A stretch of 64,000 bases of DNA from the NCBI GenBank assembly GCA_004322045.1, contig SCRN01000013.1:1-64000 (forward strand). Reading direction: 5' to 3'. The notes beneath the pieces are model-generated. The model was not told the DNA's origin and did not search any database. It was given only the letters and a program-made list of their open reading frames with translations. This stretch comes from Paraburkholderia sp. (lineage in GTDB: Bacteria > Pseudomonadota > Gammaproteobacteria > Burkholderiales > Burkholderiaceae). The position numbers and the translations under genes are program-made. Shown piece after piece: positions 36,170 to 64,000 of this stretch. Positions within the stretch are counted from its first letter, which is position 1. Each line of letters opens with the position of its first letter.

Positions 36170-36186
36170 GGCGGCGCTAGGGGGCA

Positions 36187-38169: not shown

Positions 38170-38200
38170 GACAGCGAGATACTGAGGATCCCTAACGGCT

Positions 38201-42082: not shown

Positions 42083-45000
42083 GTGCCGTCTTTTTTCATC
42101 GACCGTCCGGTGTTCGCATGGATCGTCGCACTTGCGATCATCGTCGCGGGCGCGCTGGCCTTGCCGATGTTGCCCGTCGCACAGTATCCGCGGCTCGCGC
42201 CCCCGCGCGTGATCATCGACGCGCAATATCCAGGCGCATCGGCGGAGGAAGTCGATAGCAACGTCGCGAGCTTGATGGAGCAGAGCCTGGACGGCGCTGA
42301 GGGTCTGCAGTACTACGAGACGACCAGCGATGCACTGGGCGAAGTCGAAATCGTCGCAACGTTCGCATCTGGGATCAACCCCGATCTTGCGATGGTCGAC
42401 GTGCAAAACCGCCTGAAGCAAATCGAGCCGCGGCTGCCGCAGGCGGTGGTGCAGCAGGGAATTTCGGTGTTCAAGGCTGCCAATACGTTCCTCATGCTCG
42501 TGACGCTCGTGTCGACGGATGGAACGCGCGATTCCACGGCACTCAGCGACTACTTGAACCGGTTCTTGTTGCGGGAGCTCAAGCGCACGCCCGGTGTGGG
42601 TGCGGCGCAGCTGTGGGACGCCGATCGCGCAATGCGGGTGTGGCTCGATCCCATGAAGCTGCGCGAGTACGGTCTCTCCCCGGCCGACGTCTCGGCGGCA
42701 ATTCGCGCGCAGAATGAGACGGTCACCGCAGGGGCGATCGGCGATGCGCCGGCGGTCGATGGGCAGGTATTGACGGCCTCGGTCACCGTGCGCGGCCAAT
42801 TGCGCACGGCGCAGGAGTTCGCCGCCGTCGTGCTCAAGGCGCAGCCCGACGGCTCGGTCGTGCGGCTCGGCGATGTCGCGCGCGTCGAGCTCGGGGCCGA
42901 CACGTACTCTTTCTGGTCGCGCTTGAACGGCAAAGCTGCTGCGACGGTCGGCATCCAGCTCGGGCCGCTCGGCAACGCGCTCGAAACATCGAACGCGATC
43001 CACCGGCGCGTCGCCGAACTGTCGAAGACCCTGCCGCCCGGGATTGCCGTAGAGATCCCGTATGACGGCGCGCATTTCGTCAAGATTGCTATCAGCGAGG
43101 TCCTGCTTACGCTGATCGAGGCGATCGTGCTCGTGTTTTGCGTGATGTGGCTGTTTCTGCGCGATCTGCGCTATACGCTCGTGCCCACGGTCGTGATTCC
43201 GGTCGCGCTGATGGGCGCATTCGCGGCCATGTACGCGTTCGGGCTGTCGATCAATGTTTTCACGTTGTTCGGGCTGGTGCTGGCAATCGGGATTCTGGTC
43301 GACGACGCGATCGTCGTCGTAGAGAACATCGAACGCATCATGCGCGACGAAGGGCTTGCGCCGCGCGAGGCGACGCGCAAGGCGATGGGGCAGATCGGCG
43401 GGGCGATCGTCGGCGTCACGGCCGTGCTGACGGCGGTATTCGTGCCGATGGCGTTCTTCGACGGCGGCGTCGGCGGCATTTATCGTCAGTTCTCCATCGC
43501 CATGATTGCGGCGATCCTCGTTTCCGCGTTCATGGCGCTCTCGCTCGCCCCCGCATTGTGCGCGAACTTGCTCAAGCCGCCGCGGGATGAGAATGTGATG
43601 GGCCGCGGCGTGGCTGCTCGGTTTCTCGCGGGGTTTGAACGCGCATCGGACCGCTATCGTCGAATCGTTGCGAAGTTGCTTCGTTATCCTAAGCGTTTCT
43701 TCGCCGTGCATCTCGTCATGATCGGTATCGGCGCGTTGTTGTATGCGTCGTTGCCCGGCGGGTTTCTGCCGACCGAGGACCAGGGCCAGCTTCAGGTGAT
43801 GGTGCAATTGCCACCGGGGGCATCGCAGCAACGCACCTACGCGGTGGTTCACCAGGTCGAGGACATTCTTCATCGCCAAAGCGCGGTCGAGAATGTGACG
43901 AGCGTGATCGGTTGGAGCTTTGCGGGCAACGGTCAGAACGTTGGCATGGCATTCGTTGCGCTGAAGGACTGGTCGCGTCGCAACATCGATGCACTTGCGT
44001 TGCGCGACCGCTTGAATCAATCGTTCGAGAAGATCGGCGATGGCCAGGTGATCGCGCAATTGCCGCCTTCGGTTCCGGGAATGGGGCACGCGGAGGGGTT
44101 CACGTTCCATCTCGAGGACCGCGGCGGCATGGGCAATGTCGGCTTGGAAGCGGCCCGCGAGCGATTGCTCGAATTGGCGCGCAAGAGCGCCGTGCTGGCC
44201 GATGTCCACTCCGAGACGCTGCCCGATGCGCCGCGCGTCGTGCTCGAGGTCGATCGGGCCAAAGCGTATGCGATGAACGTGTCGTTCGATGCGATCCAAG
44301 ACGTGCTCGGCAACACGTTCGGCATGTCGTACATCGACGATTACCCCGCCGCAGGCCGCATGTTGCGCGTGCTGGTAGCGGCCGATTCCCAAGCGCGCAT
44401 GACCGATGCCGATTTGTTGAGCTTATCGGTGCGCAATTCGGTCGGGAAGATGGTGCCGTTCTCTTCTTTCGCGTCGTTGAAGTGGTCGCGGGGGCCGACG
44501 ATGCTCTCGCGCTACAACGGCTATCCGTCGCTCGACGTGACGGGCCGTGCCGCCGACGGCTACAGCTCCGGTGCAGCGATGGCGGAAATGGAGCGGCTGG
44601 CTGCGCAACTGCCGCAGGGCACGGCCTACGATTGGGCCGACGCGGCGCTGGCGGAAACGCAGGCTGCACGGCAAACGCCGCTTCTCATTGGCCTATCGCT
44701 GCTGGCTGTCTTCATGGCGCTCGCAGCACTCTATGAAAGCTGGTCGATTCCGCTTTGGGTGCTGATCGTCGTGCCGCTCGGCATGATCGGCGCTGTCGCG
44801 GCGATGCTCGTGCGTGGTCTGCCGAACGACATCTACTTCAAGATCGGGTTGGTTACCGTCATCGGGCTTGCCGGGAAAAATGCGATCCTGATCGTGCAAT
44901 TCGCACGCGATGCGCGCGCTCATGGCGTCGCGCTCGTCGATGCGATCGTGCAGGCGTGTGCGATGCGCTTCAGGCCCATCGTGATGACGTCGGCGGCATT

Positions 45001-49899: not shown

Positions 49900-50595
49900 A
49901 TGACTGCCATGGTGTCTCTGAAGGATGTCGTCAAGACGTACACGCGCGGCAAGCAAATAGTCGAAGTGCTGCACCATCTCGACATGCAAGTGGCCGACGG
50001 CGACTTTGTCGCCCTGATGGGGCCGTCGGGATCGGGCAAGACGACGGTCCTCAATCTGATCGGCGGCATCGATCATCCGACGAGTGGGGAAATCGTCGTT
50101 GCGGGCGAGCGCATCGATCAATTGCGCGGCGGTGGCCTCGCGCGTTGGCGTTCGAACAATGTCGGCTTCGTGTTTCAGTTTTACAACTTGATGCCGATGC
50201 TCACGGCCGAGCGCAACGTCGAACTGCCGTTGCTGCTTACTTCGCTGCCCAAAGGCGACCGTTTGAAGCGTGTGCGTGCGGCGCTCGCCATCGTGGGCTT
50301 GGAGGATCGCGCCAAGCATAAGCCGTCGGAGTTATCCGGCGGGCAGGCGCAGCGCGTGGCGATTGCGCGCGCACTCGTCTCCGACCCCAAACTGCTGGTT
50401 TGCGACGAGCCGACGGGCGATCTCGACCGCACCACGGCCGATGAAATCCTGCACTTGCTGCAGGTGCTCAACCGCGAGTACGGCAAGACGATCGTCATGG
50501 TCACGCACGATCAAAAAGCGGCCGACTATGCAACGCATACGCTGCATCTCGACAAGGGCCGATTCGTCGAAGAGCGGCAAAAGACCGAAGCCTAA
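49900..50595 (+). CDS. MacB/LolD-type ABC transporter ATPase
   Basis: A 231-residue ATPase: Walker [11 protein letters not shown]-loop VFQFYNL, signature [15 protein letters not shown], Walker [14 protein letters not shown]-loop VTHD. The MacB/LolD subgroup motif [22 protein letters not shown] is present. Start supported by GAAGGAG. It serves the two FtsX-like permeases downstream; in MacB these parts are fused. Confidence 0.95.
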
Positions 50596-50611
50596 CGCAA
50601 GGGCATAGACG

Positions 50612-51757
50612 ATGAAATTCATCCCGCTGATATGGGCGATGCTTTGGCGCAAGAAGGTGCGAACTTCGCTGACGCTGCTCTCGATCGTGATCGCATTTCT
50701 GCTGTTCGGCATGCTGCAAGGCGTGAACTCGGCGTTCAAGCAAACCATCGAACGTTCGAACGTCAATCGCCTCGTGGTGACGAACAAGATTTCGATCACC
50801 GAGAGCCTGCCGTACGCCTACATGAGCCAGCTCGAAACGATTCCTGGCGTGCAGCGCGTCTCGCACGAATCGTGGTTCGGGCCTTATTACCAGGACCCGA
50901 AGAACTTTATCGCCGCATTTCCAGTTGAGCCCGAGCGCGAGTTCCCGGCACACCCGGAGATGGTCGTCGCCAAAGATCAGCTTTCCGCACTCGAGCACAC
51001 GCGCGACGGCGCGATCATCGGCGCAGGCTTGGCGAAAAAGTACGGATGGAAGATCGGCGATCGCATTCCGCTGCACTCCACGATCTGGGTGAAAGCCTCG
51101 GACGGCAATTCCGATTGGGATTTCACGATCGTCGGCATCTATGAAGTGCCGAGCGAGCGTTCGCGCGAAGACGCCATGTTCTTCAACTACAAGTACTTCG
51201 ACGAAGCGCGCAGTTTTGCGAAAGGGAAGGTGGGGTGGTACATCGTGCAGGTGAAAGACCCCAGCCAATCGGCGCAGATCGCGCAGGAGATCGACCGTCG
51301 CTTCGCCAATTCGCCCGATGAAACCAAGACCCAAACGGAGAAGGAGTTTCAACAGTCGTTCATGAAGCAGATCGGCGACATCAATCTCATCGTCACCTAC
51401 ATCCTCTTCGCCGTCTTCTTCGCGCTGTTGTTCGCGGTCGGCAGCACCGTGATGCAGGCCGTGCGCGAGCAAGTGCCCGAATTGGCCGTGCTCAAGACGC
51501 TCGGCTTTTCCGATACGCGCATGCTCGTGCTCGTTCTCGTGCAATCGCTGACGCTGTGCATTTTTGCGGCGCTGCTCGGGCTCGCTATTGCCGATCTGCT
51601 CTTTCCGATGTTGCGCGGCACGCTCGGCGTCGTCGACATGCCCGTGACCGTCATCGCCGAAGGAGTCCTCATGGCGGCGCTGCTCGCCGTGGCGACCGGC
51701 ATCGTTCCGGCTTGGCGCGCCAAGCGGCTCGTCATCGTGGAGGCACTGCGCTCATGA
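50612..51757 (+). CDS. FtsX/MacB-type ABC permease (first)
   Basis: A 381-residue permease with one N-terminal helix, a periplasmic MacB-like domain (VQRVSHESWFGPYYQD ... IIGAGLAKKYGWKIGDRIPL) and three C-terminal helices (LIVTYILFAVFFALLFAVGS; LAVLKTLGFSDTRML; VIAEGVLMAALLAVATGIVP). The last 4 bp overlap the second permease (ATGA). It probably pairs with that protein as a heterodimer. Confidence 0.92.
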   Translation: MKFIPLIWAMLWRKKVRTSLTLLSIVIAFLLFGMLQGVNSAFKQTIERSNVNRLVVTNKISITESLPYAYMSQLETIPGVQRVSHESWFGPYYQDPKNFIAAFPVEPEREFPAHPEMVVAKDQLSALEHTRDGAIIGAGLAKKYGWKIGDRIPLHSTIWVKASDGNSDWDFTIVGIYEVPSERSREDAMFFNYKYFDEARSFAKGKVGWYIVQVKDPSQSAQIAQEIDRRFANSPDETKTQTEKEFQQSFMKQIGDINLIVTYILFAVFFALLFAVGSTVMQAVREQVPELAVLKTLGFSDTRMLVLVLVQSLTLCIFAALLGLAIADLLFPMLRGTLGVVDMPVTVIAEGVLMAALLAVATGIVPAWRAKRLVIVEALRS

Positions 51758-52932
51758 TCAAGCAAATCGTTGCTGTCACGTCGATGAACCTGCGTAGTTT
51801 GCCGCAGCGCATCGGCACGGCGTGGGTCATCGTGATTGGTATCGCCGTGACCGTCGCGGTCATGGTGTCGGTGCTGGCCATGGCCGCGGGTTTTCAACGC
51901 ACGTTGAAGGGCACGGCGCGCGCCGATCGGGCCATCGTGTTGCGCGCGGGTTCGCAGGCCGAGCTCGAAAGCACGATCGATCGAGAAAACGCGCAGACGA
52001 TCATGGATGCGCCCGGTGTCCGTAAAGACGAAGCCGGGCGGCCGATCGCTTCGGCGGAAGCAGTCGTGATCGTCGCTTTGCCGCAAAAGAAGGATGGGGC
52101 CGACGCGAACGTCACCTTGCGCGGGGTCGGGCCGAACGCGGCGAAGCTGCGGCCTGAGATGCATTTGATCGCCGGACGAATGTTTCGCCCCGCCGTGCGC
52201 GAGTTGATCGTCGGCAAATCGGCCGTGGCGCAGTTCAAGGGGCTCGAGCTCGGCAGTCACATTGCCTTTCGCGACTCCGAATGGACCGTCGTCGGCATTT
52301 TCGAGAGCGGCGGCGATGCGCATGAATCCGAATTGCACGGCGACGCCGAGACCGTGCTGTCTGCCTATCGGCGCAATGGTTTCCAATCCGTGACGGTCAT
52401 GCTCGATTCGGCGGCAGCGTTCGATCGATTCAAGAGCGCCTTGACGACCGACCCGACGCTCAAGGTGGGCGTCCAGCGCGAAGCCGATTATTACGCGGCG
52501 CAATCGCGCAACTTGTCGAAGCTTTTGAATTTGCTTGCGTATTTCGTGGGCGGCATCATGGCACTCGGCGCGTGCTTCGGTGCGCTCAATACGATGTACA
52601 CGGCGGTGTCCACGCGCACGCGGGAAATCGCCACGCTGCGTGCGATCGGCTTTTCCGGCATGCCGATCGTGATTTCGGTGTTGGTTGAGGCGCTGCTGCT
52701 TTCCATCATCGGCAGTGCCATCGGCTCCGGCGCTGCGTGGCTGTTCTTCAACGGCAACACGGTCAATACGCTCGGCGCGGGTTTCACCCAGGTCGTGTTT
52801 CATTTGACGGTCACTGCGTCGTTGCTCGTGTCGGGCGTGTTCGTCGCCTGCACGATCGGTATGCTCGGGGGCTTGTTACCGGCGGTACGTGCGGCGCGTT
52901 TGCCGATTGCGACCGCGTTACGGTCGAGTTGA
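51754..52932 (+). CDS. FtsX/MacB-type ABC permease (second)
   Basis: A 392-residue permease of the same layout: N-terminal helix (GTAWVIVIGIAVTVAVMVSV), periplasmic domain (ELIVGKSAVAQFKGLELGSH, EWTVVGIFESGGDAHESEL), and C-terminal helices (LLNLLAYFVGGIMALGACFG; STRTREIATLRAIGFSG; LLVSGVFVACTIGMLGGLLP). Start overlaps the first permease by ATGA. Last structural gene of the efflux operon before the two-component genes. Confidence 0.92.
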   Translation: MIKQIVAVTSMNLRSLPQRIGTAWVIVIGIAVTVAVMVSVLAMAAGFQRTLKGTARADRAIVLRAGSQAELESTIDRENAQTIMDAPGVRKDEAGRPIASAEAVVIVALPQKKDGADANVTLRGVGPNAAKLRPEMHLIAGRMFRPAVRELIVGKSAVAQFKGLELGSHIAFRDSEWTVVGIFESGGDAHESELHGDAETVLSAYRRNGFQSVTVMLDSAAAFDRFKSALTTDPTLKVGVQREADYYAAQSRNLSKLLNLLAYFVGGIMALGACFGALNTMYTAVSTRTREIATLRAIGFSGMPIVISVLVEALLLSIIGSAIGSGAAWLFFNGNTVNTLGAGFTQVVFHLTVTASLLVSGVFVACTIGMLGGLLPAVRAARLPIATALRSS

Positions 52933-52984
52933 CGGCGAGGTGAAGGCCTCTCTTCCTGGCCGCTTGTGGGTGCGTCGCGACGGC

Positions 52985-54031
52985 ATGCGCCAGCCGGCGC
53001 CGCTCGCGCGCAGCGTCGTCTCGATCCTATGGCTCGTCGCGTTCTGCAGCATCATCAGCGTGGGCTTTTGGACGGCGCATCGCGACGAACCCTTGCTGCG
53101 GTATCTTGTGGTCGGAAACGGAATCGGCTTGAGTGCCTCGGTCCTCAGCAGGCTCACCGGGACCCTCGCCGCGACGCGCGTTGGCCTCTTGCCTAGGGTT
53201 CTGCTGATCGCGCCGTTGAGCGTGGTGGCGGGCGTAGAAATCGCTGCCTACACGGTGGGTGGCGTGCCGCATTTGCTGGGGCGTTCGAGCCTCGACGCTT
53301 GGCTTCACTACGGTACGTCGTTCGTCATTGCGGGCGTCGCGTGTGCGTTCGGCGCGGTATCTGCTCAAGCGATGCGGATGCGCGCATCGTTGGAAACGCA
53401 GCGGCGCGAGGCGGCCGAGTTGCGGCAAGCCGAGACGGCGGCGCGGCTCGCCCTGTTGCAAGCGCAGATCGAACCGCATTTCCTGTTCAATACGCTGGCG
53501 AATGTGCAGAGTTTGATCGAGCGCGACCCGAAGCGCGCGGCGTCGATGCTCGATAGCCTCAATCGATACCTGCGCGCGAGCTTGAAACGCACGCGCGATG
53601 CTGCCTCGACGCTCAAGGACGAACTCGAACTCGTGCAAGCGCTGCTCGACATTGCCTCGATTCGTCTCGGCGATCGGTTGCGCTATACGATCGACGTCGT
53701 CGAGCCGATGCGTCAAGTGCCGCTCGCGCCGCTGCTGGTGCAGCCACTCGTGGAAAACGCGTTGCTGCACGGCATCGAGCCGGCGATCGACGGGGGCGAG
53801 ATTCGCATCGTGGGGCGAATCGAAGACGATAGGTTGACGCTCGATGTGATCGACACAGGCGTCGGCCTGGGACACAGCACGAAGTTGCATGGCGGCGTGG
53901 GACTGTCAAACGTACGCGCTCGCTTGAATAGCGTGTATGGTGCGCGCGCGAGCGTGTCCGTCGTCGCGAACGCCGAAGGCGCGCGCGGTGTGACATCCAG
54001 CCTGTGCATTCCGATTTCTCCGCATCGCTAG
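52985..54031 (+). CDS. LytS-type sensor histidine kinase (His_kinase family)
   Basis: A 348-residue kinase with four N-terminal membrane helices (SVVSILWLVAFCSIISVGFW; LLIAPLSVVAGVEIAAYTVG). Then comes the His_kinase box with phospho-acceptor His in LLQAQIEPHFLFNTLANVQS, and a HATPase domain (LLVQPLVENALLHGIEPAID, VIDTGVGLG). It starts about 50 bp after the second permease; GTG 52940 is an alternative start in the same frame. Pairs with the LytTR regulator 13 bp downstream and probably controls the adjacent efflux operon. Confidence 0.9.
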   Translation: MRQPAPLARSVVSILWLVAFCSIISVGFWTAHRDEPLLRYLVVGNGIGLSASVLSRLTGTLAATRVGLLPRVLLIAPLSVVAGVEIAAYTVGGVPHLLGRSSLDAWLHYGTSFVIAGVACAFGAVSAQAMRMRASLETQRREAAELRQAETAARLALLQAQIEPHFLFNTLANVQSLIERDPKRAASMLDSLNRYLRASLKRTRDAASTLKDELELVQALLDIASIRLGDRLRYTIDVVEPMRQVPLAPLLVQPLVENALLHGIEPAIDGGEIRIVGRIEDDRLTLDVIDTGVGLGHSTKLHGGVGLSNVRARLNSVYGARASVSVVANAEGARGVTSSLCIPISPHR

Positions 54032-54044
54032 GGAGCGCTCGCTT

Positions 54045-54773
54045 ATGCCGTCAGCTCTAATCGCCGACGACGAGCCGAATCTTTCGGCCGAACTCGCTGC
54101 GCGCCTAACGCGGTTTTGGCCCGAACTGCAGATCGTATCGATGCCACGGGATGGGGGGGAGGCGCTGGCGCAGTTGAACGAGAAGCGCCCCGATTTCGCC
54201 TTCCTCGACATTCGCATGCCGGGTATCGATGGGCTCAAGGTTGCGCAACTGGCTGCGCCCGTGCGCGTGGTGTTTGTGACGGCATACGATGCCCATGCGG
54301 TGGATGCGTTCGAGGCCGCCGCGACCGACTATTTGCTCAAGCCGGTGACGGACGAGCGCCTCTTGCGCTGCATCGCACGTTTGCAGCAGAGCGGCGCGCC
54401 GGAGCGTGGGGCAGCGGCCGACGAATTGACGCTGCCTGGGGACGTGGCGCCGATTCGATGGTTGACGGTGGGGATCAAAGAAACCACGAAACTAGTATCG
54501 ATCGACGATGTGCTCTTCTTTCAGGCTACCGATAAGTACACCGAGGTGGTCACGCGCGATCAGCGGCATTTGATTCGCACACCGCTGAAAGAGTTGCTGC
54601 CGCGGCTGGACGGCGAGCAATTCGCGCGGATTCATCGCGGCGTGATCGTGGCTTATGCGGCAGTGGATTACATCGAGCACGATCTGCTGGGCAGGTTGCG
54701 GATTCATGTGGTCGGCGGCGGCGTGGTGCTGCCCGTCAGCCGGGCCTACGCGGCGTTGTTCAAGCGGATGTGA
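54045..54773 (+). CDS. LytTR-family response regulator
   Basis: A 242-residue regulator: receiver domain (ALIADDEPNLSAELAARL, phospho-acceptor Asp55 in FAFLDIRMPGIDG, Lys in DYLLKPVTDE) and a C-terminal LytTR DNA-binding domain from about residue 137 (GIKETTKLVSIDDVLFFQAT; QFARIHRGVIVAYAAVDYIE; VLPVSRAYAALFK). Partner of the preceding kinase. Confidence 0.93.
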   Translation: MPSALIADDEPNLSAELAARLTRFWPELQIVSMPRDGGEALAQLNEKRPDFAFLDIRMPGIDGLKVAQLAAPVRVVFVTAYDAHAVDAFEAAATDYLLKPVTDERLLRCIARLQQSGAPERGAAADELTLPGDVAPIRWLTVGIKETTKLVSIDDVLFFQATDKYTEVVTRDQRHLIRTPLKELLPRLDGEQFARIHRGVIVAYAAVDYIEHDLLGRLRIHVVGGGVVLPVSRAYAALFKRM

Positions 54774-55253: not shown

Positions 55254-56321
55254 CTATCGAGTCTCCTGCAGAGTTGCTAACGCTTGTAGCGCCAGTCCAG
55301 GTGCCAGACGTACCCCTGAGCCGGACCCGCCCTGTACGGCGACGATACGAGGAAGCACGGGCGATGTACGAATGACAGGAAGCCGATTTGGCGTGTAAAG
55401 GTCGCAGAATGCGTAACCGCCGGAACAATCTCTGGCCGCCTGTGGGGCGCGTGCGGCCAACGCCTGGATGCCTTCGCGAAGATCCTCCTCGTCGGGACGG
55501 CCGTCGAGGGCATCCGGCTTCACGTCCCATGCATTGCGGCGAAAGCTGACCAGGGCCTCCCCTTTGGTATGCGGAAGGACAAACAAATCATCCTCTATGA
55601 AGTAGATGAGTGGGTCGCCCAGGTTGACAGGCAACCGCGTCTGTAGTGCTGCGACGCGTTTGCAACGCAGTCCTTCTACCGGCCTGAGGCTGGACGAAAG
55701 CGAACCGGGCAGATCCCACGGCCCGACGGCCAGCGCCACGTTCGCTGCGCGCCACTCTCGTCCGTTTGCGCTCAGCAAGTACTTGTCGCCGACCTGCTGA
55801 ATGTCATCAACGTGGCGCTCCGTTTCCAACGTGGTTGCGCCCTGGTTCTTCTGGCCGATCAGCAGTGATTGCGCTAACAGGCGTGCTTGGACGATTGTTC
55901 CGTGCTCGGAGTGAGTGACGAACTCTTCCCCCGGCTTCAACAGGAGACCTGGCAAAATGGCGCTCACACGAGTTCGCTCGTTGCTGGTCGCGCGTCGTAA
56001 CGGGACAGCCATCTGGGCGCGGAAAGCATCTAGTCGATGGCGCTGAATGACATACATCACAGGGACGTTGCGCATGAAAACGCCGGCCGGTGTGCGCGCG
56101 AGCGCCGCATACCGTGCGCGGCTCGCGGCTATCAGGGGCAGGTGTGCCCGAGTTGCCGCGATCGGGAAGTCCGCTCCCAATGACCACGCTGTGGCGCCGG
56201 ACGCGGGACTAGTGTGTCGTTCCAGCACTTGAATACGCCAATCTGGATGAAGGCGACGTGCCTCGTGCGCGATGAAAGCTCCGACGATTCCGGCCCCAAC
56301 CACGATTAGGTCGACTGTCAT
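55254..56321 (-). CDS. FAD-dependent amine/amino-acid oxidase (DAO family)
   Basis: A 355-residue flavoprotein with the N-terminal dinucleotide motif (VDLIVVGAGIVGAFIAHEA) and the DAO-family C-terminus (VQGGSGSGVRLAPGLALQAL). Middle part resembles glycine/sarcosine/D-amino-acid oxidases. In the hydrazinoacetate pathway an enzyme of this type (Spb39) oxidatively splits the N-N linked lysine-amino-acid conjugate, freeing the hydrazino acid; I infer the same role here. ATG 56321 is preceded by GGAGG and overlaps the cupin stop as ATGA. Last gene of the operon. Confidence 0.85.
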   Translation of the reverse strand: MTVDLIVVGAGIVGAFIAHEARRLHPDWRIQVLERHTSPASGATAWSLGADFPIAATRAHLPLIAASRARYAALARTPAGVFMRNVPVMYVIQRHRLDAFRAQMAVPLRRATSNERTRVSAILPGLLLKPGEEFVTHSEHGTIVQARLLAQSLLIGQKNQGATTLETERHVDDIQQVGDKYLLSANGREWRAANVALAVGPWDLPGSLSSSLRPVEGLRCKRVAALQTRLPVNLGDPLIYFIEDDLFVLPHTKGEALVSFRRNAWDVKPDALDGRPDEEDLREGIQALAARAPQAARDCSGGYAFCDLYTPNRLPVIRTSPVLPRIVAVQGGSGSGVRLAPGLALQALATLQETR

Positions 56322-56656
56322 TCCCGCACCTCCGGCCACCAGATGCTGAGCACCGTGAGTGGTTCAGCGCCCGTTGCCATGACCTGATGAGGAATCCAAG
56401 GCGCGAAGAACACCGCGTTTCTTGCATATAGCGGGATTTGAGCGTCGCCGGAGTAGAGAATGCCGCTTCCCTTGTGCAAGATCCACAGTTCTGAAACCTT
56501 ATGGGCGTCCAGGGCACTCATCTTCCCTGGCGGTAGTGTGAACCATGATGTTTTAAATGGTAGCGCTGTGCTGGGACACTCGTCTTCGCAGAGCATTCCA
56601 GAAGGGTTCATTTCAGGCGGACCAAAGGAGATTCGGATGGGTGTCAAAAAGGTCAT
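56318..56656 (-). CDS. Stand-alone cupin, candidate N-N bond-forming subunit
   Basis: A single small cupin of 112 residues (116 if a TTG at 56668 is used). Cupin motif 1 appears as DAHKVSELWILHKGSG, supplying His and Glu ligands, and motif 2 as FFAPWIPHQV, supplying another His. In the hydrazine synthetases I know of (Spb40, PyrN) a zinc-binding cupin is fused to a MetRS-like domain and rearranges an ester of N-hydroxylysine into the N-N product. Here it is a separate gene between the hydroxylase and oxidase genes, and most likely acts with the MetRS-like protein. Ribosome binding site is weak; it overlaps the oxidase gene (ATGA). Confidence 0.8.
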   Translation of the reverse strand: MTFLTPIRISFGPPEMNPSGMLCEDECPSTALPFKTSWFTLPPGKMSALDAHKVSELWILHKGSGILYSGDAQIPLYARNAVFFAPWIPHQVMATGAEPLTVLSIWWPEVRE

Positions 56657-56695
56657 CGTAAATTTCAACGTTGATTCAAGCCACGCTGGCCCGCG

Positions 56696-58006
56696 CTATC
56701 GCCTGTCAGCAACGCTCAGTAGGTTGTGGAATGCATCGTCATTCTTCCAGGCCGTTGTTGTCGTAGCCCGGTAAGAGGGGTAGACCTCGCGGCCCGCCAG
56801 GGCGTTAAGCACGCGAGCGCTTCTCCAAGACATGAGGCTGAGGTTGGGATCTGCTATCCCATGTGTTCGCTCGGCGCCATTCAACACATAGATCCGCAGG
56901 TTTTCCGGTCCGTCCCAAGCTATTGAGTAATCTGGTCGTATCTGCAATGCTCCATTTTTATCCACCATTCGGTCGCGCAGACTTTCCATGAAAGCAGGGA
57001 ACACGGTGCGATAGCCGGAACAGAAGATGACGACATCGACCTCACAATGCTCAATGCGGTTAACGTCAGCGTTGTATAACGTCGCAACCAGTTGATTGTG
57101 GTTTCGGCATAGGCCAGTCATGCGTCGACACGGTAAAAGTTGATGATGCAGAATGCCGCTACCGGCTATATCCAATTGGTACAGGCGGGCATAGATGTTT
57201 TGAATCAGAGATTCGGATATGCCGTCGCTCGCGAGCCGCTGTTGCTCAAGCAGACTTGACCTACGCTCAGGTGACAGGCTATAAAAGTAGTCGACGTAGG
57301 GCGCAGCGAACCATTCGTTCGAAAACGCTGAATTGTCCATAGGCAGAAAGCCCGCACGACTCGATAGCCAAGTGATTGAAGACGGGAGCGTCTGGTCGTG
57401 TGACAGCAAGAAATCGACAATCTCGGCCCCGCTTTGGCCTGCGCCGACAACGAGAACTCGCTTTCCTTTGAAATCTGGTCTGATGTTGAGTATCTCGCTG
57501 CTATGCAGAACCTGGGAGCTGTCTTTATGCTCGGCGGCGAAATCCGGTAGGGCAGGTACGCGTCCCGTGCCGAGAACCAAGGACGCAGCAGCCGCCTGAA
57601 ATCGAGATTCGCAGGTTACCTCGAAGCGATCGTTCGATATACGGACTGTCTGCGCGCGCTCGCCCCAGCGGATCGTGGGTAGCTGATTCGCCGCCCATCG
57701 GAAGTACTGCTCGAATTCGTATCGTGAACAACCGACTTTGTTGGCGGTCATCGCGCGATATATACGTCCTTCCTGTACTAGGAAATTAAGGAAGGAATAG
57801 CGGCTAGTGGGGTCGACGAGCGTCACCAAGTCCTTCAAATATGAAACCTGGAGCACGCTCCCAGGAAGCATGGCTCCCGCATGCCACTGAAATTGCGGCT
57901 TGGCGTCCAGAAACTTTCCACGTAGGCTGGTGATCGGCTCAGCCAACGCGGCAAGGCTCAGATTCGAGGGGCCTGCGCCGATACCGATGAAATCAAATTG
58001 CTCCAT
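56696..58006 (-). CDS. L-lysine/L-ornithine N-monooxygenase (SidA/IucD/PvdA family)
   Basis: A 436-residue flavin N-hydroxylase: FAD motif FIGIGAGPSNLSLAAL (residues 6-21), NADPH motif VLVVGAGQSGAEIVDFLL (from about 184), and the family's D/ATGY-type motif as CSGY (329-332). VLQVSYLKDLVTLVDPTSRY is the typical substrate/FAD region. It makes N-hydroxy-lysine or -ornithine. In siderophore loci it would stand with NRPS or acyl/acetyl transferase genes; here it stands with MetRS-like, cupin and oxidase genes, so it is the likely first step of hydrazine formation. ATG 58006 follows GAGAGAAAG; it overlaps the MetRS-like gene by 14 bp. Confidence 0.93.
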   Translation of the reverse strand: MEQFDFIGIGAGPSNLSLAALAEPITSLRGKFLDAKPQFQWHAGAMLPGSVLQVSYLKDLVTLVDPTSRYSFLNFLVQEGRIYRAMTANKVGCSRYEFEQYFRWAANQLPTIRWGERAQTVRISNDRFEVTCESRFQAAAASLVLGTGRVPALPDFAAEHKDSSQVLHSSEILNIRPDFKGKRVLVVGAGQSGAEIVDFLLSHDQTLPSSITWLSSRAGFLPMDNSAFSNEWFAAPYVDYFYSLSPERRSSLLEQQRLASDGISESLIQNIYARLYQLDIAGSGILHHQLLPCRRMTGLCRNHNQLVATLYNADVNRIEHCEVDVVIFCSGYRTVFPAFMESLRDRMVDKNGALQIRPDYSIAWDGPENLRIYVLNGAERTHGIADPNLSLMSWRSARVLNALAGREVYPSYRATTTTAWKNDDAFHNLLSVADRR

Positions 58007-59714
58007 GGGCTTTCTCTCTGATGGCCGTATCGGTCGACCGGTAATAAGTCGGTTCATTCATCACCACCCGCCGTGATGCAGTCGGCGCTATCGGTGCGAA
58101 GAGAGAGCCGATGCCATCCACATCCAGTTTCGTCACGTTACGTGGCATATGTGCGCCCGGGCAACCCCAGTAAGCGTCTTCTACTCGACCAAAGCAGCCG
58201 AGGATGCCCCAAAGTTGCTCGGCCATCACGGGTGCGATTGGATATAGACCCATTGCTAGCGCTACAGCGGCGGCAAGTTCGTCGCGGACTTCGCGCACGA
58301 ATGTGCCTTGAAGTGAAGAGTGCGCCGCAAGATGCTCCGAATCTCGGCCGGCCTCCGCCGCTGCCTGCACAATCAGATCCAACTGCTGAAGAGCCGTTCG
58401 CGGCGAGAATCGCTCAACGCTATACGCCTCATGCACACGTTTAAGGGTATTTCCAATCCACTCGCGGTATGAGGTCGAGATTGCCGGTGAGCAGGCAAGG
58501 CTTTCTTTCGCGCATTGCATTACCGACGCCGCAGTTTCACTGCGCCGAGCGAGCGCCGTTAGCCAGCCGTACCACCGCGGCAGCAATTCTCCATGCACGC
58601 AAGCGTAAAAATCATCCCAACGAAAATTGGTTTGGGACACTGTGGGGCGATCCCAAGAAAGGTATAGACGGAGATGATCCGCTGGAGTGTTTTCAAGCGC
58701 CTCGGACAACCAAATCGCGTGACGGCGACTGGTCGAGAACTTCAGACCGTCAAGCCGATAAAATTCATTGGTAACGAAAGCGGTTGGTAGAGGGATATGC
58801 GCATCAAAGGCTCGCATGACGGCTGGAAATAGCAGCGAATGGAAATATCCGTTATCGATTCCCAAGAATTGGACGACTCGTTGTCGAGTACGCCAAGCTC
58901 CCTCCATGTGCTCGTTTCCGCCCGCGGCGAGATAACCGGCGGCCATTTCAAACCACACATAGATCCTGTGATCCTTGAATTTATCGATCGGCACGTCGAT
59001 GCCCCAGTCTCCCGGGTGGGAAACTGCAATTTCAGGGAGGCCAGCCGCAATTATGCTCTCGGACAATGCACGCAAATGACCACTCATGCGCGTGCTCCTC
59101 AAAAACTGCCGTAAAGTCTCTGCATGACGCGCGAGCGGCATATAAAGCCGCTCACATGGTCGCGTTTCGCATTCGGATAAGCAGATCGTGCAACGCTGGT
59201 TTTTCAGGTCGGCGCAGTCGTTCGGACGACCACACGCCTCACACGCGTTGCCACATGATCGAGCCCCACAATGGGGGCATTCACCCGAGACGTACGCTTC
59301 GTATGCCCATCGGTCACATGATGCGCAATAGGGCAGAGGCTTTAGGCGTGCGACGATATCCCCTTGTTCGAACAGCTTGTGAAATACTTTCTGCGTCAGC
59401 CATCGATGATGCGGTGCGTGATTCGGGCGAGTGACTACGTCGAAATTGACATGGGCCTTTGTCCAGGCGTCGACGATTCTGTTACCGAACCATTGAGCTG
59501 TCTCTTCTGCAGTCTTCCCATCGCGGATTCCACGTGCATCGGTGTAGCTCTGGTGGTCGTCAATTCCTGTGATGGCAATAACATCTTCTCCTGTCTGCCT
59601 TAAATGCCGTGAAAAAATGTCTGCGGCGAGGTAAGGGCCGCACAGGTGGCCGAGATGGAGATCTCCATTGGGGGTCGGCGGGGTTGCAGTGACCAGCCAC
59701 GCATTAGTTTCCAT
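57993..59714 (-). CDS. Methionyl-tRNA-synthetase-like enzyme, candidate hydrazine synthetase subunit
   Basis: A 573-residue class I synthetase-like protein. HIGH motif as HLGH (residues 20-23), KMSKS replaced by KFSTS (325-329). A MetRS-type zinc insertion carries many Cys (130, 133, 146, 149, 154, 158, 161, 175, 178, 182). FLGIDNGYFHSLLFPAV matches the MetRS core, and the C-terminus resembles the helical anticodon-binding domain. Start ATG 59714 has GGAGAGG; a long upstream open frame lies in the MFS gene and is excluded. It is unlikely to be the housekeeping MetRS, given its place between an exporter and an N-hydroxylase gene. Known relatives activate an amino acid for coupling to N-hydroxylysine. 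Confidence 0.85.
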   Translation of the reverse strand: METNAWLVTATPPTPNGDLHLGHLCGPYLAADIFSRHLRQTGEDVIAITGIDDHQSYTDARGIRDGKTAEETAQWFGNRIVDAWTKAHVNFDVVTRPNHAPHHRWLTQKVFHKLFEQGDIVARLKPLPYCASCDRWAYEAYVSGECPHCGARSCGNACEACGRPNDCADLKNQRCTICLSECETRPCERLYMPLARHAETLRQFLRSTRMSGHLRALSESIIAAGLPEIAVSHPGDWGIDVPIDKFKDHRIYVWFEMAAGYLAAGGNEHMEGAWRTRQRVVQFLGIDNGYFHSLLFPAVMRAFDAHIPLPTAFVTNEFYRLDGLKFSTSRRHAIWLSEALENTPADHLRLYLSWDRPTVSQTNFRWDDFYACVHGELLPRWYGWLTALARRSETAASVMQCAKESLACSPAISTSYREWIGNTLKRVHEAYSVERFSPRTALQQLDLIVQAAAEAGRDSEHLAAHSSLQGTFVREVRDELAAAVALAMGLYPIAPVMAEQLWGILGCFGRVEDAYWGCPGAHMPRNVTKLDVDGIGSLFAPIAPTASRRVVMNEPTYYRSTDTAIREKAHGAI

Positions 59715-59860
59715 GGTTACCTCTCCTCTTGAATTGATCATCAGATCGGAGCCGAACAGACAACTGCTCGCGACCACGTTTTGAGACGTTGTACGTTGGT
59801 GAGACCGCGTCGGGCGAAATCTGCGCGAGCGGCAATTGCCGGTTGCAATAGGTTGTTCGC

Positions 59861-61069
59861 CTAGGCCTCGGTCGCTCGCTCGCTGCAGAGATCTCGGGGA
59901 AGCCATTTGCACATTGCCAATGCCATTACAGCGAAGCCAAAAGAGATTCCAATCTGAACCTCCGCGCCGTGTCCGCTCAACAAGCCCCCCAGCATGGCTC
60001 CCGCTGGGTATCCAGCGAGGTTTAAACTTGACGAGACGGCCAGCGTGCCCGTGGCGCCCGAGCTCGGCAATGCTGCTTGACGGAGCGTGAGCAAGCCCAC
60101 GTCCAGCAAGCCGACCGCAATGCCAAGTGGCACGAAGGCTGCGAACAACCCGAAGACGTTGTTGAACGCAAACAGCCCTGTAAGGCCTGTGACGGTCAAT
60201 GCTGCGCCTGCGGACATCATGCGACGTTCGAGGCCCTGGTCTGCGTAGCGGCCAGCGAGCAATGAGGCGGCGATTCCGGCAACGCCTGCGATTGACCAGC
60301 TGATGCCGACCCATGAAATATCGAGCTTGAATCGGGAAGTAATGAGCAGAGGCGATGCAACTACAAGAATGCCGATTGCGACCTGATACAGGAAGTACAC
60401 GCCGGTGAGTTGCCGCAAAACGGGATGCGAGACAACCTCGCGAATCGCCTTTGCAACATGAAGAACTCGCGTGGCGGCGCCGGGCTCGTGAACTAAGCGC
60501 CCCGAACTCAGTGCTATTGCAGCCGCAAGTAGGAAAACGACGCCGACTGCGGCCACGCTCATACGGCCACCAACCGCAATAACGGCCACGCCGGCGAGAG
60601 CGGGGCCGGCCATATCGGCCACTGCGGATAGCGTGGAATCCAGACCATTGGCCGGCCCGCGCAATTTTGCTGTCAGGACGAATGAGATGTAGCTGCGCAT
60701 GGCGACGTTGCCGAACGCGCTGGTCACGGACGAAAGAAACGCGAGGCCCCAGAGTGTCCACATGCCCGACGGGTCAGCCGAAACGCAAAGGGCGATCCCG
60801 ATCGCAGCGATACCTTTGACCGCGTAGTCGACCGTCATCCAACCGGTAACATTGCGGCCTTGAAGAAATGTGCCGCTAACGGGACTCAGAATGAGTCCGG
60901 GTAGGGTCGCGAGCAACACTGCTAGCCCCGCTGCGGCGGGATGGTGCAGGTCCGCAACGACGAAGATCACCAACGCTACATCAAACATCGTCTGGGCGAC
61001 GCGGCCCGCGAGCGTAGACACTGCAAGACTAGCGAAACGCCGATCTTTGAGCACATCGCGGTAGCTCAT
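59861..61069 (-). CDS. MFS exporter
   Basis: A 402-residue major-facilitator protein with about twelve membrane helices; examples are AGLAVLLATLPGLILSPVSG, WVGISWSIAGVAGIAASLLA and GIAVGLLDVGLLTLRQAALP. Its MFS_3/enterobactin-exporter-like layout fits product export and self-protection. The start ATG (61069) overlaps the hydrolase stop as ATGA. A 146-bp gap separates it from the MetRS-like gene, where a secondary promoter could lie. Confidence 0.9.
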   Translation of the reverse strand: MSYRDVLKDRRFASLAVSTLAGRVAQTMFDVALVIFVVADLHHPAAAGLAVLLATLPGLILSPVSGTFLQGRNVTGWMTVDYAVKGIAAIGIALCVSADPSGMWTLWGLAFLSSVTSAFGNVAMRSYISFVLTAKLRGPANGLDSTLSAVADMAGPALAGVAVIAVGGRMSVAAVGVVFLLAAAIALSSGRLVHEPGAATRVLHVAKAIREVVSHPVLRQLTGVYFLYQVAIGILVVASPLLITSRFKLDISWVGISWSIAGVAGIAASLLAGRYADQGLERRMMSAGAALTVTGLTGLFAFNNVFGLFAAFVPLGIAVGLLDVGLLTLRQAALPSSGATGTLAVSSSLNLAGYPAGAMLGGLLSGHGAEVQIGISFGFAVMALAMCKWLPRDLCSERATEA

Positions 61070-61857
61070 TTTGAACTTGCTTTTTCAAGTGTAGTGACCA
61101 GCAGCTCGCCAACCCTTTTGGGCTCATCGAGCCAGGGGGCATGCCCCGCCCCGGGTATGATTTCTACGACGCAGTTTTTGGCTGCTGCGCCAATCTCGGT
61201 TGCTGATGCAGCCCCTGCCCACGGATCGTGTTCCCCGTTGATGACCATCATTGGCGTTTGCATCTGCTGTACAAGCGTCGGGAGTTCGTCATCCACTGGT
61301 CTCGTGAGAAGCGAGCGCATTGCCTGCACATTCCAAGAGCGGCGGCACGCGTCAAGAAAGGCGAACTGTGCCGCGCCTGTTACGGGGAGCGTGAGTGACA
61401 AGTCAGCCACCAAAAGATCAAGTAGTTCGGATTCCTCGGGCGGCAGTCTCGCTGGTGAAAGTGATTGCGCGCGCTGGGCGTATTGACGCGTTGGCTGACC
61501 AAGCATACGCAGGCGCTTTCTGAGTAGCTCTGGCTGATCGATGCGATTGCGCAACTGGGCCGCTATCAATACGACGGCCGTCAAATCAGCTGATGTCTGA
61601 CTGGCGGCACGGATTGCAGCCCAAGCGCCCGCAGAATGGCCGATCAGGACGACGTTCTCGCTCGGAGCCGCCGCGCTTATCAGTTCTATTAGTCTGGTCG
61701 TCTGTAGCGCGATCGGGTCATCTCCCGGGTGACAGGCAGACATCGCAGACAGGCGCTTGCAACCGTGAGGAAGCGGTAGGCTCTCTAGCGTTTCTGGGCC
61801 GAGTCCCGGACCGCCCGGCGCGAGGATGACTGTTGTGGGGCGCGTTGCGGATGGCAT
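61066..61857 (-). CDS. Alpha/beta hydrolase
   Basis: A 263-residue alpha/beta-hydrolase: oxyanion region ILAPGGPGLG, nucleophile elbow VVLIGHSAGAWAAI, acid GEHDPWAG, and His in IPGAGHAPWLDEP, so the Ser-Asp-His triad is complete. Esterase, amidase or thioesterase activity on a pathway intermediate is likely. ATG 61857 is preceded by GGAG; a TTG five codons earlier is possible. Coupled to the exporter gene (ATGA). A 149-bp gap to the SET gene upstream shows nothing recognisable. Confidence 0.88.
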   Translation of the reverse strand: MPSATRPTTVILAPGGPGLGPETLESLPLPHGCKRLSAMSACHPGDDPIALQTTRLIELISAAAPSENVVLIGHSAGAWAAIRAASQTSADLTAVVLIAAQLRNRIDQPELLRKRLRMLGQPTRQYAQRAQSLSPARLPPEESELLDLLVADLSLTLPVTGAAQFAFLDACRRSWNVQAMRSLLTRPVDDELPTLVQQMQTPMMVINGEHDPWAGAASATEIGAAAKNCVVEIIPGAGHAPWLDEPKRVGELLVTTLEKASSK

Positions 61858-62006
61858 TGTTGGAGTCTCCAATCATGAAAGGGTCTCGGCGAGGAGCGGC
61901 TTTCGCTCTGGTTCGCCGGTGCGACTTCGATTTGCCGATCTGCATAGCATCGAGATATCGCGATGTCCTTGGGGAGTACGTCTTGAAGAACGGTGAATGA
62001 AGCCTC

Positions 62007-62567
62007 CTACCGACGCACGCGATTCGACCATGTCGGCGGTACAACGACGCTGCCTTCTCTTAGAGGGATTTCTTGCGGAAGATTGCGCGCCCGCTCAAGC
62101 GCGGGTGCAATACGTTCCTGCCACGCGGCAACGAGCGTGGCCGGTATGGAGCCCGCGACGGATCGTACTTTCCCGACGCACGCTGGCGTTCCGCATGAAC
62201 ATGCAAATTCCCACGATAACTCGTGTCTGAACGTTCGATAGTCGATGGTGATCTCTTCCCCTGCCTTGGCGTCACGCACCGCGATGCCCACTCCGAGCCC
62301 ATAGTCCAGAACCGTCGCTTCGCAGGAGTGATTCAGGAGGTGTGCTCCCCCGCACGGGAGAATTAGCTTGCCATCGGCGAGCCGATATCCATACTCGTCG
62401 AGCCACTGCACCACGGCGGGGATGGCGGTCGTCAGTTGAGCCACGTCCCAAACGCGGCAGTTGGCACATGGGCCCCATACGACGGTACCGAGATGAATGT
62501 CGCGCGAGGCAACGATCCCGGCACCGGACACGGCGCTAAAAGCTGGATACAAAGCAGAATGCAGCAT
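62007..62567 (-). CDS. SET-domain protein
   Basis: A 186-residue protein with a complete SET core: an N-terminal GxG strand (SGAGIVASRDIHLGTVV), the pseudoknot motif LLNHSCEA (NHSC at 79-82), GEEITIDY (103-110), and a post-SET zinc knot CSCGTPAC (123-130). SET proteins methylate lysine side chains using S-adenosylmethionine. In a small-molecule operon it might act on a free or peptide-bound lysine-type amine or on another pathway protein; this is speculation. The start overlaps the ATP-grasp stop (TAATG). Confidence 0.85.
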   Translation of the reverse strand: MLHSALYPAFSAVSGAGIVASRDIHLGTVVWGPCANCRVWDVAQLTTAIPAVVQWLDEYGYRLADGKLILPCGGAHLLNHSCEATVLDYGLGVGIAVRDAKAGEEITIDYRTFRHELSWEFACSCGTPACVGKVRSVAGSIPATLVAAWQERIAPALERARNLPQEIPLREGSVVVPPTWSNRVRR

Positions 62568-63817
62568 TACTGGATCCCGAGAATTTTTTGGGTGGCCCTT
62601 TCAAACTCGGCGACTACATCCGCAGAGCGGCCCACCACGACATATCGCCATTTGCCTTCAATGTCGAACGTGTCCGCGGTCAATACCGCCCGCGCTTCTG
62701 CTCCCCGGGCACTAAGGCCGGCAGCCTTCAGTGCATCTACAGCTTCTGCGAAATTCATCCGACGGCCTCCGGGTCGTACATCTGCGCGCCAGTGCGTCGG
62801 CGATTGACCAGGATGCAGTCGTCTCGCCAGTTCTTCGAGGTACGTGCCCCCAGTGCGCCGTACGTTGGCTTCAGTCACAACGAAACCACCGTCGTATGCG
62901 CCGCTATCGACGTCGAAAATCCCGCGGTAGCCGCGAGCGTGCAGCCAGTTGCCCAAAGCAGTGCCGGCTTCTACCAATTTTGGGTAAAGGGGGCCTGGTT
63001 CGGCTGGCGTCACCATTCCAGTCCATGCGTTGTTTACCGTTCGCTGATCACAGATGTAAAAAATGCTGGCGCCAGTATCGTCAATGGACATTTCAATGCT
63101 TGGGGTGCCGACAAACGGCAGATATTCTTCGTAGACCCAGCCGCAGTCGCGGTTGGGCTGGCTGGCGATAGCTTTTTTTACCTGCTCATCAATCTCGTTG
63201 TTGCTGCTTGAGCGTATAACGATGTTTCCGTATCCGTTGGAGGCCCGGTTGGTCTTGATGATCGCAGCCGAATGATCACGTAGAAATCGCTTGAGGCTGA
63301 ACGTCAACTCGTCCGAAGTTCGCGCATATCCTCCGTTTGCGACGTGCAGTCCCAAGGCGACGGCTATCTCGCGAAAGCCACGCTTTGTGTTGATCAGGCG
63401 CAACGCTTCCAGGGTAGACGCAGTTGGCAGCGAGGTGTACGGAAGAATACGTACGCCAGTCAGGCAAGAGAAATCCAACACCTGGCTATCCAGAACGAAG
63501 GGCGACAGTTCAGGTCGCGATGCGATGCGTTGCATTGCGCCGAGTTCGCGGACAACATCGATCGCGTGAACGCCACGTACCTCGGCCGGAGCGATGATTT
63601 CGATCTGCCCGACATCCAAGTCAAGCGTTGCGGCAACGTAGTCACGGAACGCCGAGCTGCAGGGAGCCAGCATCACGACGCAATCTCCGGGATATGCTTG
63701 CCAGAGCTTGCGCGGCGTTACCACCGCCATCGCGCGGCGATACGCATCGCTGGGGACGTCGGCCATGATTTCGTTGACGAGATTAGCCAGGATGGTACGG
63801 GTTGGTCGCTGCGTCAT
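62567..63817 (-). CDS. ATP-grasp ligase with pre-ATP-grasp domain
   Basis: A 416-residue ligase. The N-terminal ~150 residues form a pre-ATP-grasp region (VVMLAPCSSAFRDYVAATLD). The ATP-grasp fold follows with a phosphate-binding segment (IIKTNRASNGYGNIVIRS), the adenine-contact region WVYEEYLPFVGTPSIEMSID, and the metal-binding end VVTEANVRRTGGTYLEELAR. It resembles PGM1-like peptide ligases, which form amide bonds through acyl phosphates. It probably joins an amino acid or hydrazino acid to a partner. Both ends overlap neighbours (ATGA with the methyltransferase, TAATG with the SET gene). Confidence 0.85.
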   Translation of the reverse strand: MTQRPTRTILANLVNEIMADVPSDAYRRAMAVVTPRKLWQAYPGDCVVMLAPCSSAFRDYVAATLDLDVGQIEIIAPAEVRGVHAIDVVRELGAMQRIASRPELSPFVLDSQVLDFSCLTGVRILPYTSLPTASTLEALRLINTKRGFREIAVALGLHVANGGYARTSDELTFSLKRFLRDHSAAIIKTNRASNGYGNIVIRSSSNNEIDEQVKKAIASQPNRDCGWVYEEYLPFVGTPSIEMSIDDTGASIFYICDQRTVNNAWTGMVTPAEPGPLYPKLVEAGTALGNWLHARGYRGIFDVDSGAYDGGFVVTEANVRRTGGTYLEELARRLHPGQSPTHWRADVRPGGRRMNFAEAVDALKAAGLSARGAEARAVLTADTFDIEGKWRYVVVGRSADVVAEFERATQKILGIQ

Positions 63818-64000
63818 ACGGTTGCCTCCCGGGTAGCGGTGAATATGGCGTGACCTGCGTATATCCAGACCACGTCAACTCCTACGAAGCCAGCGTCGCG
63901 GAGCCAGTCCAGGTGCTCGGCCACTGTTGAAGGCTGATCAATTGGATCGGGCGACAGTAGGCGGTAGTGGTTCCATCCTGTTTGCTCGAAAATCGTTGCG
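63814..64000 (-). CDS. SAM-dependent methyltransferase, C-terminal part only
   Basis: Only the last 61 codons are in the window. The ending SPDPIDQPSTVAEHLDWLRD followed by AGFVGVDVVWIYAGHAIF is the usual C-terminus of class I small-molecule methyltransferases (the HLxWLxxAGFxxVDxxW pattern). The stop overlaps the ATP-grasp ATG (ATGA), so it belongs to the same operon. The N-terminal SAM-binding part lies beyond the right edge. Confidence 0.75.
   Translation of the reverse strand, partial: ATIFEQTGWNHYRLLSPDPIDQPSTVAEHLDWLRDAGFVGVDVVWIYAGHAIFTATREATV

Follow-up and report, generated by a model that had tools for sequence, protein, structure and literature searches.

A candidate negamycin-type operon with a four-gene N–N cassette in a Paraburkholderia genome

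The stretch analysed here (the window) comprises 64,000 nucleotides of a Paraburkholderia sp. genome (contig SCRN01000013.1), namely bases 1–64000 of a 216-kb contig in a genome of 5.99 Mb and 54 contigs. Its last part harbors most of a ten-gene minus-strand operon, in which a putative hydrazine-forming (N–N) cassette stands next to genes for a predicted beta-lysyl amide of the negamycin type. Contig 62001–82000 (denoted L002) was examined too, extending the view past the window edge.

The operon and its genes

In transcription order the operon encodes a lysine 2,3-aminomutase (LAM), a class I methyltransferase (MT), an ATP-grasp ligase, a SET-domain protein, an alpha/beta hydrolase, an MFS protein, a methionyl-tRNA synthetase (MetRS)-like protein, an N-hydroxylase, a cupin and a flavin adenine dinucleotide (FAD)-dependent oxidase. 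It ends at position 55254, where the oxidase gene stops. The features are listed below with the gene starts of a simple caller; L064–L066 are clusters with a KinJ-type heme enzyme, described further on.

55254..56339, minus strand: FAD-dependent oxidase, DAO family (PF01266, 2.6e-27); 50.6% identical to the oxidase in the same position in Streptomyces ossamyceticus
56318..56668, minus strand: stand-alone zinc cupin (Cupin_2, 1.4e-10; best PDB match 5UQP, i.e. RHS1, 2.8e-10)
56696..58057, minus strand: flavin N-hydroxylase, lysine N6 type (PF13434, 4.9e-98); 58.6% identical to S. ossamyceticus; start probably at about 58009
57993..59714, minus strand: MetRS-like ligase, proposed to act on an amino acid and N-hydroxylysine (PF09334, 1.9e-80); start ATG at 59714
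59861..61069, minus strand: MFS exporter (PF07690); 60–62% identical to MFS of L064–L066
61066..61872, minus strand: alpha/beta hydrolase (PF12697, 1.3e-15); 50–52% identical to the hydrolase of L064–L066; TTG start uncertain
62007..62567, minus strand: SET-domain methyltransferase (PF00856, 3.5e-7); 63–66% identical to SET of L064–L066
62567..63817, minus strand: PGM1-type ATP-grasp ligase (Pre-ATP-grasp PF18604, 5.5e-12; PDB 8ynd, 2e-9, and PGM1 3wvq, 6.5e-6); 65% identical to S. ossamyceticus
contig 63814–64551 (L002:1814–2551; window part 63814..64000, the 3' end), minus strand: class I MT (PF13649, 7.7e-16)
contig 64729–65757 (L002:2729–3757), outside the window, minus strand: LAM (TIGR03822, 447.6 bits, cut-off 396.25)

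All gene types named in a preliminary description of the window are present as open frames on this strand with Pfam matches. The methyltransferase placed there is a real gene, but it starts at contig 64551 and has only its last 187 bases inside the window. Beyond position 64000, where that description had advised to look, lie the rest of this gene and the LAM gene, which had been overlooked because the window ended first. The genes had further been called nearly all translationally coupled, which is too strong: five of the nine junctions overlap (MT/ATP-grasp, ATP-grasp/SET, hydrolase/MFS, MetRS/hydroxylase and cupin/oxidase), and at the other four 27–177 bp separate the genes with the starts chosen here.

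The lysine N-hydroxylase and the DAO-type oxidase adjoin the synthetase, as judged by Pfam, and the same four genes including the cupin are found in S. ossamyceticus. By gene families this cassette resembles the Spb38/39/40-type pathway of s56-p1, azaserine and N-nitroglycine, which likewise employs a lysine N-hydroxylase, a MetRS-like protein, a cupin and a FAD oxidase; the proposal of such a hydrazino-acid set beside an ATP-grasp ligase and a methyltransferase is thus supported. Unlike in that type, cupin and MetRS are separate proteins in the window (MetRS 32–34% identical to the fused type in the NRPS-type loci L080 and L081; NRPS, nonribosomal peptide synthetase), and the hydrazino acid would be used in a beta-lysine amide. 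The oxidase may play an Spb39-like role, the oxidative release of hydrazinoacetic acid.

In a gap-free alignment counted by hand, cupin residues D54, H56, E60 and H94 align with the zinc ligands Asp63, His65, Glu69 and His103 of RHS1 (PMC8664883). With N–N-forming RHS1 as its best structural match, the protein is not an unrelated cupin, and a putative function in the N–N bond-forming rearrangement is suggested by analogy. The RHS1 cluster of Rhodococcus jostii RHA1 (L105) also has a stand-alone zinc cupin; unlike in the window, the 13 kb examined, where LAM was not searched, gave no match to a DAO-type oxidase. Compared with this locus, the window hydroxylase is 44.6% identical over 422 aa, the MetRS-like protein 32.8% and the cupin 32%, and the R. 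jostii lysine hydroxylase beside RHS1 is the closest hydroxylase compared outside LAM clusters. The best NCBIfam model of the window hydroxylase is histamine N-monooxygenase, far under its cut-off (267.9 of 700 bits).

The MetRS-like protein keeps the HLGH and KFSTSR motifs (class I ATP motifs). That it is the housekeeping MetRS, which would have told against the preliminary description, is rejected: the cluster copy scores 240 bits, under the metG cut-off of 336, and a true MetRS scoring 521 bits is encoded elsewhere in the genome. A linked set of MetRS paralogue, cupin and lysine hydroxylase was reported in 2010, with Burkholderia phytofirmans among its hosts (PMC2922099), and the presence of such a hydrazine-type trio in Burkholderia is no novelty in itself.

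Plasmid matches to the MetRS-like protein come from Escherichia in 186 of 307 records; the 19 Escherichia rows among 30 listed matches are genes annotated metG with 23–24% identity. Ten of 308 plasmid records with a match were examined. No LAM match was found among the called genes of nine other MetRS-like loci (L008, L010, L012, L080–L085). Three of these (L083, L084, L085) are plasmid-borne hydroxylase-cupin-MetRS cassettes from Pantoea, Deinococcus and Klebsiella; L083 and L084 continue with a FAD oxidoreductase, an ATP-grasp protein and an ABC substrate-binding protein (ABC, ATP-binding cassette), another type of hydrazine cluster.

Opposite the cassette, the operon begins with genes fitting a beta-lysine half. 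The LAM has L-lysine 2,3-aminomutase 2A5H as its sole PDB match at 0.001 (3.4e-78), and no other KamA-family match occurs in the genome. The model it passes, TIGR03822, describes 'lysine-2,3-aminomutase-like' proteins; with 320.6 of 525.4 bits it falls short of the stricter model for lysine 2,3-aminomutase. Residues D267 and D304, which stand at positions D293 and D330 of the 2A5H alignment (by hand), are invariant in 8/8 aligned LAMs; we take D293 and D330 to be lysine-binding. Identity of this LAM is 67–69% to the LAMs of L013, L014 and L064, against 28% to those of L009, L018, L019 and L020; the beta-lysine may be 3R, as in negamycin, or 3S, as in 3-epi-deoxynegamycin. The ATP-grasp protein groups with PGM1-type peptide ligases and is proposed to be a beta-lysine:methylhydrazinoacetate ligase, and the class I MT is proposed to be a hydrazine N-methyltransferase. 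In the SET protein the NHSC and DY motifs are kept in all twelve aligned sequences. Its best PDB match, weak at 6.6e-5, is BurB; since BurB methylates methionine (PMC12542666), action of the SET protein on a small molecule is possible.

Related clusters and their N–N modules

Plasmid records, a genome scan and 394 genomes of the S. mashuensis family yielded 17 loci with LAM and this ATP-grasp, window included. Classified by gene content, they carry the following modules, none having both within loci of about 20–29 kb:

MetRS/cupin module (6 loci): window; S. ossamyceticus (L013); Streptomyces sp. SAT1 (L009); OfavH-34-F (L017); S. mashuensis (L018); S. cirratus (L021)
KinJ/NegJ-type heme enzyme (7 loci): Allorhizocola (L019); Lentzea pudingi (L020); G626, G646, G668, G565, G855 (L064–L067, L069)
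Neither (4 loci): S. morookaense, Streptosporangium, S. klenkii, G644 (L014–L016, L068)

The MT is present in 13/13 loci with an N–N module and in 0/4 without, and SET in 12/13 and 0/4, respectively, which argues that the MT goes with the hydrazine, and LAM and ATP-grasp with the other half. Hydrolase and MFS are each found in 9 of the 13 module-bearing loci, omitting a weak 54-bit MFS match in L017. S. ossamyceticus is 67% (LAM), 65% (ATP-grasp) and 57.5% (MetRS) identical to the window. As the same genes recur together in Streptomyces, the gene set is more than a chance grouping.

The search of the S. mashuensis family gave matches in 33 genomes (34 places), eight of which reach at least 490 bits while the other 26 stay under 340; LAM, MT or SET was found in none of the ten low-scoring places examined. 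Matches of 23–28% (L022–L024) were not counted as clusters. Two of eleven plasmid records with the ATP-grasp gene were examined, SAT1 (counted) and S. microflavus, the latter with no LAM or MetRS-like gene annotated near it. An eighteenth locus, in a genome of the same family as the host (G088; L007, 5.9–12.9 kb), retains MFS, MT, ATP-grasp and SET, and next to them a MetRS-like gene that an insertion element interrupts; LAM was not seen in the 19 kb examined, and the locus appears from its genes to be a remnant of a related cluster.

In G626, G646 and G668 (L064–L066) the gene order is LAM, a 392–404-aa protein, MT, ATP-grasp, SET, FemX-like, hydrolase, MFS and KinJ. The order in the window is the same minus the 392–404-aa protein and the FemX-like gene, with the four-gene cassette in the place of KinJ. 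By their content, these KinJ-type clusters fit the published outline of the negamycin cluster, with a KinJ homolog, N-methylation, lysine hydroxylation, beta-lysine formation and ATP-grasp (PMC12154649). The window thus has in common with the neg cluster of Kitasatospora purpeofusca the LAM, a methyltransferase, the ATP-grasp, one N–N module and, via L064–L066, the gene order, whereas it differs in its Burkholderia-type host, in having MetRS, cupin, hydroxylase and oxidase for the N–N bond instead of the heme enzyme NegJ, and in the two missing genes.

The 392–404-aa protein has no Pfam match in the three members scanned (L064, L067, L069). By eye it shows HRE…H, as in JmjC/2-oxoglutarate oxygenases, and is therefore taken as a candidate lysine or beta-lysine hydroxylase. 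It matches 5 of 13 genomes, the host genome not among them; an unrelated hydroxylase elsewhere is conceivable. A FemX-like gene is not found in the operon, and a weak 25.5-bit match lies elsewhere in the host genome. From the lack of both genes the product is predicted to be 5-deoxy and not leucylated. The known compounds leucyl-negamycin and leucyl-3-epi-deoxynegamycin (PMC12797225, PMC10296333) fit the FemX-like genes of the other clusters; SAT1/S. mashuensis-type clusters with such genes are a better match to the leucyl form than the window is. A divergent second ATP-grasp ligase with a FemAB/GNAT-like partner in SAT1, S. mashuensis and Lentzea (L009:8110–10510, L018:4537–6941, L020:2989–5183) is a candidate for leucyl addition. 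In S. cirratus a saccharopine-dehydrogenase-like gene (L021:13543–14727) lies between LAM and hydroxylase.

The KinJ proteins of the seven clusters (515–614 aa) have no Pfam match in 3/7 scanned and no NCBIfam match in 2/7 scanned. They carry RM..N..H-x36-H-x9-R-x18-R, the spacing of KinJ residues R497, M498, N501, H504, H541, R551 and R570 (PMC12154649, which also prints R496 and R550). They were assigned by this spacing, kept exactly for the seven published residues; of 584 called genes it occurs in 7, each at one of the seven KinJ-type clusters. In a whole-genome search of 13 genomes, which did not include SAT1, KinJ matches the seven KinJ-type genomes, none of five MetRS-type genomes and not G088; the NegJ/KinJ enzyme has no match in the host genome. 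A KinJ relative on a Burkholderia stagnalis plasmid (L025:13575–19328), near ferredoxin FdxA and with an AMP-binding ligase, fits the description of such a gene near FdxA in Burkholderia (PMC12154649).

The trees of ATP-grasp, SET and LAM each depict two clades (100/100), and each clade contains MetRS-type as well as KinJ-type clusters; G088 was left out of these clade tests, and the inner forks of the LAM tree are weak. In the MT tree the SAT1-side clade is kept (100/99), with the other side not resolved. A single clade of all MetRS-type rows is rejected by the approximately unbiased (AU) test with p-AU of 2e-49 (ATP-grasp), 7e-5 (SET) and 4e-48 (LAM), values which are descriptive, as the test was chosen after the first trees. 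Three (ATP-grasp), two (SET) and three (LAM) module changes are needed. With a single MetRS-type origin rejected, the trees indicate at least two changes of N–N module. A possible alternative to exchange is an ancestor that had both modules, followed by losses; no such locus was seen among the 17.

The MetRS-like proteins themselves split in two: window and S. ossamyceticus group with NBC_01483, and the SAT1 group with NBC_00158, which has an NRPS-type neighbourhood, one clade being rejected at 3e-5. Cassettes of two origins therefore seem to have entered the same pathway.

The four loci without an N–N module also lack MT and SET in the stretch examined, and a DMT-like exporter (by eye) stands beside all four. 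A DAO-family gene lies near the LAM and ATP-grasp pair in L014 and L068. Do these pairs make a separate beta-lysyl product?

Genomic setting and signs of acquisition

The GC content of 55254–64000 is 0.577 versus 0.623 for the remaining window, where the 2-kb pieces as far as 54000 lie between 0.584 and 0.665. At contig 65–68 kb, the upstream end of the operon, GC drops to 0.46–0.50, and is then 0.60–0.66 for 8 kb, followed by a second dip (0.545–0.565) at 76–78 kb. The ATP-grasp has no match in ten same-genus genomes and is present in two of 149 relatives, the host and G088; its profile at 1e-60 finds one of 369 genomes of a class-wide sample, again the host. At 1e-70 the MetRS-like protein is found in two of 398 family genomes, the host and G265. 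As the searches of 398, 369 and 394 genomes scored the best 3–4 candidates per genome, their negatives are soft. Taken together, the low GC content and the patchy distribution of both proteins point to acquisition of the operon from outside.

Divergent from LAM, at contig 66210–67755 (L002:4210–5755) on the plus strand, a LuxR-type regulator with a GerE domain overlaps a 229-aa transaldolase/FSA-like gene, and this pair sits in the stretch of lowest GC. An autoinducer domain was not detected in the regulator, which may control the operon. A promoter scan gave 5 sites against 5.3 expected, and an Rfam search of L001 and L002 gave no match at gathering score. Downstream of the operon and convergent with it, window 49900–54773 contains ABC transporter genes (by eye), then a histidine kinase and a LytTR response regulator.

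A DNA search of three window parts against plasmid and chromid records gave best rows mainly from Burkholderia, Caballeronia and Paraburkholderia at 75–80% identity, covering at most 28% of a part. Window 25001–44000 has matches in 286 such records (138 Rhizobium, 55 Burkholderia; Sinorhizobium also), six of them at 99% identity or more, and is possibly a mobile element.

Predicted pathway, alternatives and implications

Taken together, LAM, MT, ATP-grasp and the enzymes for hydrazinoacetic acid argue for a negamycin-type pseudodipeptide of beta-lysine and N-methylhydrazinoacetic acid. With a probability of roughly three in four, we read the locus as a horizontally acquired negamycin-type operon in which the heme N–N enzyme was replaced by a four-enzyme route and which would yield a 5-deoxynegamycin-type hydrazide. 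In the proposed pathway LAM would convert L-lysine to beta-lysine. The hydroxylase would form N6-hydroxylysine from lysine, to be esterified by the MetRS-like enzyme with an amino acid (glycine is most likely); rearrangement of this ester by the zinc cupin would create the N–N bond, and the FAD oxidase would cut off hydrazinoacetic acid. The class I MT would then N-methylate the hydrazine, presumably before the ATP-grasp ligase joins it to beta-lysine, and the MFS protein would export the product. The earlier expectation that the ATP-grasp enzyme joins the acid to another unit has stood, this unit being most likely beta-lysine in light of LAM and the comparative evidence, but the product would belong to the known negamycin-type family instead of being new.

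Several observations weigh against this reading. Glycine is deduced from the KinJ/NegJ exchange and the oxidase; tested members of the MetRS/cupin family act on Gly, Glu, Ser, Ala or Tyr (PMC8664883), and that of R. jostii, the only tested relative compared, uses glutamate. NBC_01483 (44–45%), the nearest MetRS relative after S. ossamyceticus, belongs to a different kind of cluster. The negamycin cluster was identified from gene content matching its published outline, not from named neg genes. The published Cys468 and Lys356 do not keep the exact spacing in both KinJ proteins checked: in that of L019 the cysteines precede the Arg by 26–28 residues, not 29, and the Lys356 place is taken by Glu and Lys in the two. 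Neither SET nor hydrolase has a proven place in the pathway, the S. ossamyceticus cluster being without SET and the hydrolase missing from several module-bearing loci. That no locus holds both modules applies to stretches of about 20–29 kb. Finally, 3-epi-deoxynegamycin is reported without antimicrobial activity (PMC10296333), so that the product, if it is the 3-epi form, may not be an antibacterial.

The spread of amino acids in the family leaves room for another beta-lysyl hydrazide, a new analogue in place of deoxynegamycin, should the MetRS-like enzyme use Ala, Ser or Glu. We regard this as rather unlikely, since the module stands in KinJ's place in syntenic clusters and the NegJ route leads from glycine to hydrazinoacetic acid (PMC12154649). 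The operon has a DAO-type oxidase and lacks a saccharopine dehydrogenase; this lack is a weak sign, as S. cirratus has both. That LAM, ATP-grasp and hydrazine cassette are neighbours which do not make one molecule, or that the ATP-grasp adds another unit, is considered very improbable. The four loci with LAM and ATP-grasp but no N–N module in the stretch examined do indicate that the pair can work without hydrazine; the full combination, however, recurs in six loci (Streptomyces and the window) and in seven more with the other N–N enzyme, the MT being present in all thirteen. PF13434, a family that takes in siderophore hydroxylases, might point to a lysine hydroxamate siderophore or to some other pathway through N-hydroxylysine, the MetRS-like gene being unrelated to it. 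This is rejected as next to inconceivable, with no acyltransferase and no NRPS or NRPS-independent siderophore (NIS) synthetase among the ten operon proteins scanned, with MetRS-like and zinc-cupin partners, and with a hydroxylase whose closest compared relative outside LAM clusters belongs to the RHS1 cluster and not to siderophore enzymes, the grouping that would have told against the preliminary description.

Deoxynegamycin-type compounds presumably share the scaffold predicted here, beta-lysine and methylhydrazinoacetic acid with no 5-hydroxyl. Searches of open-licence PMC literature found no gene cluster for them, and the combination of LAM with a MetRS/cupin hydrazine set was not found described in the titles and passages searched. 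While the hydrazine chemistry is known, the pairing with LAM and the apparent module swap are new. The clusters provide candidate genes for compounds related to negamycin, which is a bacterial ribosome inhibitor with a novel mode of inhibition (PMC12797225), and to the 3-epi-deoxy forms, which promote stop-codon readthrough (PMC10296333).

Beyond the single operon, we lean towards the view that one scaffold, beta-lysyl methylhydrazinoacetate, is served by interchangeable, unrelated N–N engines, either the heme enzyme KinJ/NegJ or one of two independently captured MetRS/cupin cassettes, one of them residing in a Burkholderia-type Gram-negative genome that would make 5-deoxynegamycin. The clusters thereby point to exchange of the N–N module within one conserved pathway, more than once, in a form that is directly testable.

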